The notes beneath the pieces are model-generated. The model did no database searches and had not been told where the DNA came from. It was given only the letters and a program-made list of their open reading frames with translations. From Thermoplasmata archaeon (GTDB lineage Archaea; Thermoplasmatota; E2; UBA202; JdFR-43): a DNA stretch of 11,353 bases. The stretch lies in the NCBI GenBank assembly GCA_021162305.1, contig JAGGYX010000020.1:1-11353 (forward strand), given 5' to 3'. The position numbers were made by a program, and so were the translations under genes. Shown here one piece after another: positions 2,994 through 8,285 of the stretch; the stretch's first letter is position 1, and every line of letters starts with the position of its first letter.

Positions 2994-3728
2994 ATGAAAT
3001 ATAAAATAACTGGAGATAATCTGCAAATTGTAACAATTGAGCTTGATGAGAGAGAAAAAGTATATGGAGAAGCTGGCTCAATGGTTTATATGAGCAATAA
3101 CATAAAAATGGAAGCTAAAGCCAGAGGAGGCATATTAAAATCAATAGGAAGAAAATTTATGGGAGAAACATTTTTCATGACAGAATTTTATCCAACAAAT
3201 GGCAATGGCTATGTTGGCTTTGCTGGAAATGCACCAGGAAAAATAAAAGCCATTGAAGTAGATGGAAAGGAATTCATCGTGCAAAAAGATGCTTTTCTGT
3301 GTGCTGAAGATAGCATCGAGTTAAGTGTTGCTTTTCAAAAAAGGCTTGGCTCAATATTTTTTGGAGGAGAAGGCTTCATTTTAGAACGCCTCACTGGCAA
3401 AGGAACTGCTTTCATTCATGCATGTGGTGATTTCATTGAAATGGAATTGAAAGATGGTGAGGAAATAAAAGTAGATACTGGAAGCGTCGTCGGATGGGAA
3501 GGAAGCGTTGATTACAGCATAAGCAGGGTTAAAGGAATAAAAACCATGTTTTTTGGAGGCGAAGGACTTTTCCTCACAACTTTAAAGGGACCTGGCAAAA
3601 TAATCATACAATCCATGACCCTTCATAATCTTGCTTCCGCCTTGGCACCTTTCCTGCCCCACCAGCAGCAGACCTCCGGCAGGAGTGGCGTGTTAGGGAC
3701 ATTTCTGGATGAAACCCTCGGCAAATAA
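2994..3728 (+). CDS. AIM24 / TIGR00266 family beta-helix protein
   Basis: This 244-residue protein belongs to the widespread TIGR00266 family, homologous to the mitochondrial protein Aim24. The biochemical role in prokaryotes is unknown, and the family fold is a trimeric beta-structure related to tryptophan-RNA-binding attenuation-like proteins. Family hallmarks are the opening MKYKITGDNLQIVTIELDE, GEAGSMVYMS, and the repeated glycine motifs SIFFGGEGFILERLTGKG and TMFFGGEGLFLTTLKGPG. There is no signal peptide or membrane segment. The ATG at 2994 was chosen over 2943 because the extra 17 residues do not match the family start and would overlap the divergent promoter region. The stop abuts, with no gap, the stop of the convergent ribK gene. 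Confidence 0.9.
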   Translation: MKYKITGDNLQIVTIELDEREKVYGEAGSMVYMSNNIKMEAKARGGILKSIGRKFMGETFFMTEFYPTNGNGYVGFAGNAPGKIKAIEVDGKEFIVQKDAFLCAEDSIELSVAFQKRLGSIFFGGEGFILERLTGKGTAFIHACGDFIEMELKDGEEIKVDTGSVVGWEGSVDYSISRVKGIKTMFFGGEGLFLTTLKGPGKIIIQSMTLHNLASALAPFLPHQQQTSGRSGVLGTFLDETLGK

Positions 3729-4397
3729 TCAGGCAGTATTCCACTTTATTTCGAGTTGCCATTCTTTAAGCTGTCCATAATCAATTAAGATGGGAGGATA
3801 CATAATTGAATATCTTTTTTTAGTCCATGTTAGCAACTTTTTGAAATTTTCTTTTTCATTTCCTTCGAAAATCATGCTGGCTACGATGCGAGAAGGGAGA
3901 ACTTTATTTCCTTTTCTTTCTTCACACCCTTCAATCAAAGGATTTTTCAATAAGGGATTTTCATAATATATTTTTATTCTGGCTTTTTTCTTGCCTTCCT
4001 CGCAGTCAAGCAAATACTTTCTACGCCATTTTAAAAATGGAACAAATTTTATTTTTATTTTGTCTCCATCTTTAAGTTGCAGTTTCTCTCTCAAATTGTG
4101 TTTTGAGATTATTTCCAGATATTCTTCTTTCGATTTTTCTGGGATTACAATTGCGGCTTTTAATCTTCCTATTTTTACTGGAAAACATTTCACTCCTCCA
4201 TATTTTTTTCCTTTCCTAATAAATCCTCTCACCATTATTCCATCCATTTCTTCTAAAATTTTTTTGTAAGGAGATAGAATATTCAGAGTGCCAGCGTAAG
4301 GATTTATTCCAAGCTCTTCTTTAAACTGCTTTTTATACTCTTCCATAGACATGAAATTTTTTGCTTTCTTTCTCCCAGAAGTAACTATTCCCATCAT
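3729..4397 (-). CDS. ribK: CTP-dependent riboflavin kinase-like protein (DUF120) with unusual C-terminal extension
   Basis: Residues 1-117 of this 222-residue protein match archaeal RibK, which makes FMN from riboflavin and CTP. Matches include IVTSG, FMSMEEYKKQF, LGINPYAGTLN (the TLN at 37-39 is a nucleotide and metal-binding element), GGVKCFPVKI, AAIVIPEKS, and LREKLQLKDGDKI. Two things are odd. The glycine-rich loop after SG, usually like GLGEG, reads RKKAK here. The kinase domain is also followed by about 105 residues (118-222) that I do not recognise, containing NKVLPSRIVASMIFEG and RYSIMYPPILIDYG. The gene begins with ATGATG immediately after the TAA of the upstream winged-helix gene, in the same frame. 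In Thermoplasma these two domains form one protein. Fold assignment is strong; kinase activity is less certain because of the loop. Confidence 0.8.
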   Translation of the reverse strand: MMGIVTSGRKKAKNFMSMEEYKKQFKEELGINPYAGTLNILSPYKKILEEMDGIMVRGFIRKGKKYGGVKCFPVKIGRLKAAIVIPEKSKEEYLEIISKHNLREKLQLKDGDKIKIKFVPFLKWRRKYLLDCEEGKKKARIKIYYENPLLKNPLIEGCEERKGNKVLPSRIVASMIFEGNEKENFKKLLTWTKKRYSIMYPPILIDYGQLKEWQLEIKWNTA

Positions 4398-4637
4398 TTA
4401 AAGTTCTTCTCTACCCTTCATTTTTGCATATAGCTTTATTCCCTCGTCTGTAAGTTTATAGCCATCTTCTCCTTCTTCTATTATTCCATGTTTCTGCAGC
4501 TCTTCTGCAGCATTTTTTACGGCTCTCTCTATTAAATGCTGTTTTTTTGCTATTCTTTCGAGCCTTTTTTCTCCTGATGCTATTTCAACAAACACTGCCT
4601 TCCTTATCTTATTCGACAATATGAAACCTTCATTCAT
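4398..4637 (-). CDS. small winged-helix protein, in frame with ribK
   Basis: This 79-residue protein is predicted to be a winged helix-turn-helix. It begins LSNKIRKAVFVEIASGEKRLERIAKKQ, continues with a recognition-helix-like stretch (IERAVKNAAEELQKHGII) and ends with a wing (EEGEDGYKLTDEGIKLYAKM). It matches the N-terminal DNA-binding half of fused wHTH-RibK proteins of some archaea, where it may regulate riboflavin genes. Here TAA (4398-4400) ends it and the next codon in the same frame is the ribK ATG. It may therefore be a separate regulator, a translationally coupled partner, or the product of a recent nonsense change. The ATG at 4637 is the first in-frame start after the preceding open sequence and has no clear Shine-Dalgarno sequence. 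Confidence 0.75.
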   Translation of the reverse strand: MNEGFILSNKIRKAVFVEIASGEKRLERIAKKQHLIERAVKNAAEELQKHGIIEEGEDGYKLTDEGIKLYAKMKGREEL

Positions 4638-4676
4638 TTTATCATTTGTATATTGTTTCTCTTCATTAAAGTTTTT

Positions 4677-4688
4677 CTTTTTATATGC
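4677..4688 (+). promoter_or_regulatory. TATA box of the methyltransferase gene, possibly bidirectional
   Basis: CTTTTTATATGC is centred about 23 bp before the ATG at 4706, supporting that ATG rather than 4685, which lies inside the box. The reverse strand of the same bases reads GCATATAAAAAG, also TATA-like, about 45 bp before the divergent winged-helix ATG at 4637. That could give an mRNA with a leader of roughly 20 nt. Confidence 0.5.
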
Positions 4689-4705
4689 TTATGCAATATC
4701 ATTTT

Positions 4706-7352: not shown

Positions 7353-8285
7353 ATGAAGGTTTGCATTGGCGGAACTTTTGATATCCTGCACGCTGGACAT
7401 ATGGCGTTGCTCAAAAAAGCGTTTGAAATTGGCAGCATTGTTTACATTGGCCTGTCATCAGATGAGTTTGTCAGAAAAAGTGGAAAAGAAGCAAAACCAT
7501 ATGAAGAAAGGAAAAAGGCATTAGAAAAATTTTTAGCCAGTAAAGGATGGAAAAGCAAGGCATTCATATCACCTCTGGATAGTGTATATGGAACAACTCC
7601 TTTTGAAGATTTTGATGCAATTGTTGTTTCACCAGAAACTGTTGAAAGGGCAAGAGAAATAAATGATATACGGAGAAGAAATGGATTGAAAGAATTGAAA
7701 ATATATGTTGTTCCTTTTGTTTTAGCCAATGACGGCATACCAATTTCATCATCAAGAATAAAAAATGGAGAAATAGATGGAAGAAAAAGAGTGAAGCCAA
7801 TGAAAGTTTGCATTGCAACAAAAAATGAAATTAAAGTTGAGGCAGTGAAGCAAGTTTTTGATGAGCTTTTTGACTTTGAAATTTTTTATGAAAGTGTTGC
7901 CATTCAAACAAAGAAACAACCATTTGGAAGGGAAATTTTTGAAGAAGCCGTTAAAAGAGCAAGCTCATGCAAAAATTGCGATTATTGCATTGGAATAGAA
8001 GCAGGAATTGAAAAACAGCATGGCATTCATTTCATTGGGCAAATTGTAGTGATAAAAGATAAAGTTGGTTTCACAACATATGGGAAAAGTCCCTCTTTTC
8101 AATGTCCTGATTGGCTGATAGAGGAAATAAAAAAAGGAAAAGAGATGAAAGAAGCAATACCATTTGAAAAAGGAGAAGAAAGCAGGGGAGCAATATGGTA
8201 TTTTTCTCATAAAATGGACAGGCTTGAATTAACAAAGCTTGGAATTTTTATGGCTATGCTGCCCAGACTTACAAAAAATTTTTAA
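7353..8285 (+). CDS. coaD: fusion of phosphopantetheine adenylyltransferase and DUF84 (YjjX-like) NTP phosphatase
   Basis: This 310-residue protein has two domains. Residues 1-149 are an archaeal PPAT, which transfers AMP from ATP to 4'-phosphopantetheine in CoA synthesis. They show the nucleotidyltransferase motif GGTFDILHAGH (HxGH at 13-16) and the ISSSRI motif (131-136). Residues 150-310 resemble DUF84/YjjX inosine/xanthosine triphosphatases, which remove deaminated purine nucleotides; the landmarks are IATKNEIKVEAVKQVF and GIEAGIE. The frame is continuous through Met150, whose codon (7800) could serve as an internal start. The first six residues of the two domains are MKVCIG and MKVCIA, a curious resemblance. 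The gene is 15 bp after the radical SAM gene and probably in its operon. Its stop lies only 23 bp before the tRNA, inside the likely tRNA promoter. Confidence 0.88.
   Translation: MKVCIGGTFDILHAGHMALLKKAFEIGSIVYIGLSSDEFVRKSGKEAKPYEERKKALEKFLASKGWKSKAFISPLDSVYGTTPFEDFDAIVVSPETVERAREINDIRRRNGLKELKIYVVPFVLANDGIPISSSRIKNGEIDGRKRVKPMKVCIATKNEIKVEAVKQVFDELFDFEIFYESVAIQTKKQPFGREIFEEAVKRASSCKNCDYCIGIEAGIEKQHGIHFIGQIVVIKDKVGFTTYGKSPSFQCPDWLIEEIKKGKEMKEAIPFEKGEESRGAIWYFSHKMDRLELTKLGIFMAMLPRLTKNF

Follow-up and report, generated by a model that had tools for sequence, protein, structure and literature searches.

On the minus strand of the stretch of DNA analyzed here (the window, 11,353 nucleotides), a small winged-helix (wHTH) gene, a single TAA, and the start of a riboflavin kinase gene (ribK) follow one another in one frame. 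The locus raises the question of what this stop codon is: a nonsense mutation that has recently split a fused wHTH-RibK gene, a leaky codon that is read through, a point of termination and reinitiation, or the plain end of a gene. The relevant features are as follows.

4661..4690, minus strand: promoter-like, A/T-rich stretch preceding the wHTH gene, recognized by eye
4401..4637, minus strand: free 79-aa winged-helix protein, a putative DNA-binding regulator (EGF-wHTH)
4398..4400, minus strand: stop codon TAA of the wHTH gene, abutting the ribK start (TAA, gap 0 in 5/5 genomes of the genus)
3729..4397, minus strand: ribK (PF01982), 222 aa, RibK domain plus C-terminal extension, coordinates including the stop codon
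4047..4397, minus strand: RibK catalytic domain, residues 1-117
3732..4046, minus strand: predicted C-terminal GyrI/BmrR-like domain, residues 118-222, only in the window's family

The name EGF-wHTH is coined here from a conserved N-terminal motif. From the ATG at 4637, the minus strand reads to GAA GAA CTT TAA (4400-4398) and then ATG ATG GGA from 4397. The open reading frames agree with the letters (wHTH, 4398-4637, 79 aa; ribK, 3729-4397, 222 aa; one frame, 0 nt apart), and the sequence-only reading had described this arrangement correctly. Two tightly spaced genes have a one in three chance of sharing a frame. Other pairs in the window are also tight, with 4-nt overlaps at 815/818, 6028/6031, and 6417/6420 (ORF coordinates). 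The in-frame, zero-gap layout is real, yet not unusual.

Two neighboring features may be recorded here. An AIM24-family gene on the plus strand converges with ribK on the minus strand, with 0 bases between the two stops at 3728/3729 (window 3726-3731). An ORF of 310 aa at window 7353-8285 resembles, from the look of its sequence, a CoaD-type nucleotidyltransferase joined to a DUF84 NTPase-like domain, the latter opening anew with MKVCIATKNEIKVEAV.

The junction was compared across Thermoplasmata/Thermoplasmatota metagenome-assembled genomes (AUK146, AUK114, JdFR-43, UBA202, and others). PF01982 is found in 54 of the 59 related genomes and is missing from G017, G020, G021, G029, and G054; in G020, the wHTH gene lies 48 bases from the contig end, leaving no room to judge its RibK. 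In the window's family (f1, G000-G016), a wHTH gene of ~79 aa lies immediately upstream of ribK in 17/17 genomes. The gaps are -4 nt (3 genomes), 0 (5), +1 (8), and +2 (1), counted with one start (L036) shifted to its ATG. Gap 0 is confined to the window's genus and occurs in all five of its genomes examined (G000-G004), each time as TAA-ATG; the other 12 of the 17 family genomes have the two genes out of frame. Whether close relatives keep the TAA, a comparison proposed with the sequence-only reading, is thereby answered: the codon and its zero gap are kept in 5/5 genomes of the genus, so the stop is not a sequencing error in a single assembly. The pair is also present in two genomes of the window's order outside f1, G018 and G019, where RibK has no C-terminal domain. 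The nearest in-frame ribK ATG, judged by eye, is at about -14 in G018 and +1 in G019; the computed values of +13 and +7, respectively, measure the distance to where the RibK alignment begins rather than to the start codon.

Both genes are under purifying selection. Between G002 and G004, dN and dS are 0.011 and 0.25 for the wHTH gene and 0.043 and 0.36 for ribK; between G000 and G002, they are 0.044 and 1.14 for the wHTH gene and 0.157 and 1.33 for ribK. The low dN relative to dS indicates that neither gene looks decayed. The TAA is the ordinary boundary of two separate, tightly packed, conserved genes.

Which winged helix the upstream gene encodes bears directly on the idea of a broken fusion. 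The 79-aa protein qualifies as a winged helix by fold and matches HTH_45 at 26.2 bits (cut-off 25.5). In hmmsearch comparisons, 19/19 wHTH proteins of the window's order score 75-94 bits against a model of the free wHTH of the class, and the same 19 score 0.2-3.7 bits against a model of the wHTH of RbkR, the fused wHTH-RibK protein that serves as both riboflavin kinase and transcriptional regulator. Alignment of profiles (hhalign) relates the order's wHTH to the free wHTH at 99.9% (E 1.8e-34) and to the RbkR wHTH at 38.0% (E 3.4e-4), the latter being the level one would expect between two winged helices; between the free wHTH of the class and the RbkR wHTH, the value is 1.2% (E 0.043). Descent of the free wHTH from the RbkR wHTH was also considered and is ruled out by the contrasting model scores. 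By these profile comparisons, the window's wHTH is a different gene from the DNA-binding half of RbkR.

The free wHTH has its own neighborhood elsewhere in the class. Among the loci read outside the window's order (L001-L030, L049, and L050, with G040 and G041 left out), RibK carries a fused N-terminal wHTH extension, as RbkR, in 32/32. In 25 of these loci, a free wHTH lies directly upstream of RbkR, its stop falling 272-337 nt before the RibK domain and ahead of RbkR's own wHTH. None was found beside RbkR in the other seven (L002, L017, L023, L024, L025, L049, and L050); the L002 contig starts too near RibK to hold one, and in L050 (G024) the free wHTH and RibK are on separate contigs. Searches with the free wHTH match 63 of 80 genomes of the class (G017 and G021 weakly, inside longer ORFs) and 49 of 154 genomes of the phylum draw, 38 of these at E 1e-10 or better. 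Seven of the 38 strong matches fall outside the class, and on reading all seven, five precede a fused RbkR. Of the other two, L130 (G096) has a free wHTH adjoining a RibK that has no RbkR wHTH and no room for a C-terminal domain, perhaps a second, separate change, and L149 has no RibK within the 2,153 bases present. The commonest layout seen is a free wHTH followed by RbkR with its own wHTH and RibK domains; in the window's order, it is a free wHTH followed by RibK.

An in-frame single stop is also found in L142 (G091; ~1434-2415 on its reverse complement), where it separates a free wHTH from a fused RbkR, indicating that this layout also arises when RbkR keeps its own wHTH. In six-frame genome searches, no fusion of the free-wHTH type with RibK was found among matches at E 1e-10 or better. 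Strong matches lie in open frames of 75-127 aa, the exception being a 246-aa frame in G099, whose RibK is in another frame. The protein database yields 206 matches to the wHTH; the 120 listed are 69-126 aa long, lengths that say nothing about fusions, as that search admits proteins of at most 1.75 times the query length.

Translation of ribK was approached through pairing of its upstream sequence with the anti-Shine-Dalgarno (SD) sequence, using an assumed 16S tail rather than the genome's own; the genome's own 16S 3' end was not found, the single match to a shorter pattern lying in a stretch that by eye is unlike rRNA. Over positions -15..-4, mean duplex energy is -6.3 for RbkR genes whose gap is at least 14 nt (n=21), compared with -1.5 for f1 ribK (n=17) and -1.0 for background at random positions. 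The difference between f1 ribK and these RbkR genes (p 7.6e-6) is exploratory, the -15..-4 window having been picked after a first scan over -22..-4 and the rows being related rather than independent. Over -22..-4, the contrast is smaller: the means are -5.1 for f1 ribK, -2.7 for f1 wHTH, -7.2 for RbkR, and -2.3 for background. Relative to background, the f1 ribK value points to a distant purine-rich site, which speaks against a site being missing altogether. Energies over -15..-4 are likewise weak for the three RbkR genes with -4 overlaps (-0.4, -2.7, and -3.1). Near its start, f1 ribK has no SD-like site, whereas the RbkR genes with gaps of at least 14 nt do.

According to one study of six Haloferax and E. 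coli gene pairs, reinitiation is nearly lost once ~20 nt separate the genes; the study names -4 and -1 nt as by far the commonest distances (PMC10666635). The f1 gaps of 0 and +1 are merely near these distances. Taken together, the reinitiation study, junctions of -4 to +2 nt, and a missing near SD-like site suggest that translation of the wHTH gene and ribK is likely coupled in the window's family, whereas RbkR genes with wide gaps likely initiate independently. The proposal that ribosomes terminate at the TAA and restart on the adjacent ATG, made from the window's letters, gains inferential support from these junctions, found in 17/17 genomes, and from the missing near SD-like site. Translational coupling is the best-supported mechanism among the earlier readings.

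The downstream protein has two parts. PF01982 (CTP-dep_RFKase) covers residues 5-117 of its 222 aa (E 3.8e-33). Its scores fall below the cut-offs of NF010762, the wHTH-RibK model (106 vs 279 bits), and of NF040694 (102 vs 168 bits). No Pfam family was found on the remaining ~105 residues; a DUF3879 row is under its cut-off (E 0.11) and lies outside the C-terminal part. In f1, these ~105 residues have the predicted GyrI/BmrR C-terminal fold, and hhalign relates them to one archaeal GyrI-like family at 93.8% (E 1.7e-7). The GyrI-like family PF06445 listed 0/16 members of the domain at E up to 10 (HMMER filters on), and a sequence-profile search of the PDB returned only two STU2 chains (E 0.11). 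On predicted fold and profile, the domain resembles the effector-binding domains of GyrI and BmrR.

No match to this domain was found in 143 phylum-draw genomes outside f1. PF06445 itself matches in just 3 of 25 genomes searched, two of them in f1 (L104 of G009 and L105 of G010), and with so few matches no obvious donor of the domain is seen. The combination of RibK with a GyrI-like domain is, among the genomes searched, seen in the window's family only. Searches of open-licence literature found no paper joining a GyrI-like or effector-binding domain with riboflavin kinase, and none on winged helix, riboflavin kinase, and Thermoplasma together; among the papers listed there on riboflavin kinases and their regulators, none is announced as treating a protein of this build. 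The domain type is best known from drug-sensing regulators. Its ligand in the kinase is probably flat and aromatic and could be a flavin.

Several readings of the locus compete with coupled translation of two separate genes. A shared frame, a lone stop, and fusions of wHTH and RibK elsewhere in the class make it tempting to see a former RbkR gene split by a nonsense mutation, a recent split being one of the options offered by the sequence-only reading. This is most improbable: the wHTH is not homologous to that of RbkR at a comparable level, its true counterpart is the free gene next to fused RbkR, and a stop ends the wHTH gene in 17/17 f1 genomes while the offset and frame of the junction vary between genera. 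An equally slim chance attaches to programmed or leaky read-through of the TAA, which would add a fused regulator-kinase to the free proteins. The in-frame single TAA in 5/5 genomes of the genus is what one would look for, but the genes lie in different frames in 12 of the 17 family members; they cannot be joined there, which rules out a fused protein as what the family has conserved. Both of these earlier interpretations are therefore set aside.

The genes could instead be merely packed together, with neither translational coupling nor a functional link. The equally tight neighbors in the window and the separate contigs of wHTH and RibK in G024 agree with this view; adjacency that persists between families and outside the class, and a ribK that has no SD-like site close to its start, make it rather unlikely. 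A further alternative concerns the history of the locus and not its present-day mechanism. The RibK of the window's order has no RbkR DNA-binding domain and begins with the RibK domain, which could reflect replacement of RbkR by a stand-alone RibK that came from a different lineage of archaea, its start falling next to the wHTH stop. A RibK tree (102 domains, 126 columns; omitting L046, full-length P0001-P0028, every second of P0029-P0120, and all loci from L070 except six) places the order outside the fused Thermoplasmatota and with other RibK, and in it L130 (G096) has a long branch. This fork is weak (support 63/90), with 126 columns for 102 rows and an unsettled bootstrap, and the unchanged location of RibK, right after the same wHTH gene, agrees with loss of the RbkR wHTH in place. 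Replacement is thus a serious possibility, although the less probable course.

The reading of the locus as a conserved two-gene operon, with a free wHTH gene followed by riboflavin kinase, the TAA as an ordinary gene end, and ribK coupled to the gene before it, is held with considerable confidence. The pair would be carried on one mRNA, probably from a single promoter in the A/T-rich stretch at 4661..4690. By eye, most of the 17 f1 sequences have an A-run followed by TTTAT some 40 nt ahead of the wHTH start, the window's version being CTTTAAT. Translation of ribK would fall mainly to ribosomes coming straight off the wHTH gene, which would fix the ratio of the two proteins. The predicted product of RibK is FMN, and the wHTH protein is a putative regulator of its own operon or of flavin genes. 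Matches to the lumazine synthase family in 23 of 25 genomes, the window's among them, fit local riboflavin synthesis. As a separate observation, two genomes of genus g9 in the window's order, G017 and G021 (completeness 93% and 70%, respectively), have no PF01982, no close free wHTH, and no bacterial-type flavokinase PF01687, and each has two lumazine-synthase-family matches.

It is conceivable, if somewhat speculative, that this family has divided the roles of RbkR anew: the kinase, lacking its own DNA-binding domain, would have gained a GyrI-like sensor, and the free wHTH, made in fixed ratio through coupled translation, would dock on this kinase and supply the DNA binding, the two proteins together sensing flavin. 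In-frame neighbors tempt one to see a broken fusion, and the ordinary junction found here corrects that misreading. The small regulator is found beside riboflavin kinase in several families of the phylum, which makes it a candidate flavin regulator, and the architecture of the kinase would link FMN synthesis to a domain of the drug-sensor type.

Comparison with known systems places these features in context. The reinitiation pairs of Haloferax volcanii and E. coli (PMC10666635) resemble those of f1 in having stop and start within a few nucleotides and a downstream gene with no near SD-like site; the commonest distances that the study reports are -4 and -1, whereas f1 most often has 0 or +1 (13/17). 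The existence of fused wHTH-RibK proteins in Thermoplasma, asserted in the earlier reading, stands (PDB 5trd and 3cta; TA1064 of T. acidophilum, PMC8305020), but the window's wHTH is not that half. RbkR and the window's protein share the CTP-dependent RibK domain. RbkR has its N-terminal wHTH in the same polypeptide and the window's RibK does not; the latter's C-terminal domain is the one unmatched in the 143 genomes outside f1. The MJ0056 type of stand-alone CTP-dependent riboflavin kinase (2vbv, 2oyn) shares RibK fold and sequence with the window's protein, for which use of CTP and riboflavin is predicted. However, that type is a single domain, with chains of 131-137 residues, and the window's RibK, with ~105 further residues as a second domain, departs from it, as its NF040694 score reflects. 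Finally, the C-terminal domains of GyrI-like proteins and BmrR (1bow, 1jyh, and CTR107, 5kax) span ~155 residues, compared with ~105 in f1 RibK, and their usual partner is a DNA-binding domain; in f1, the domain is attached to a kinase instead.
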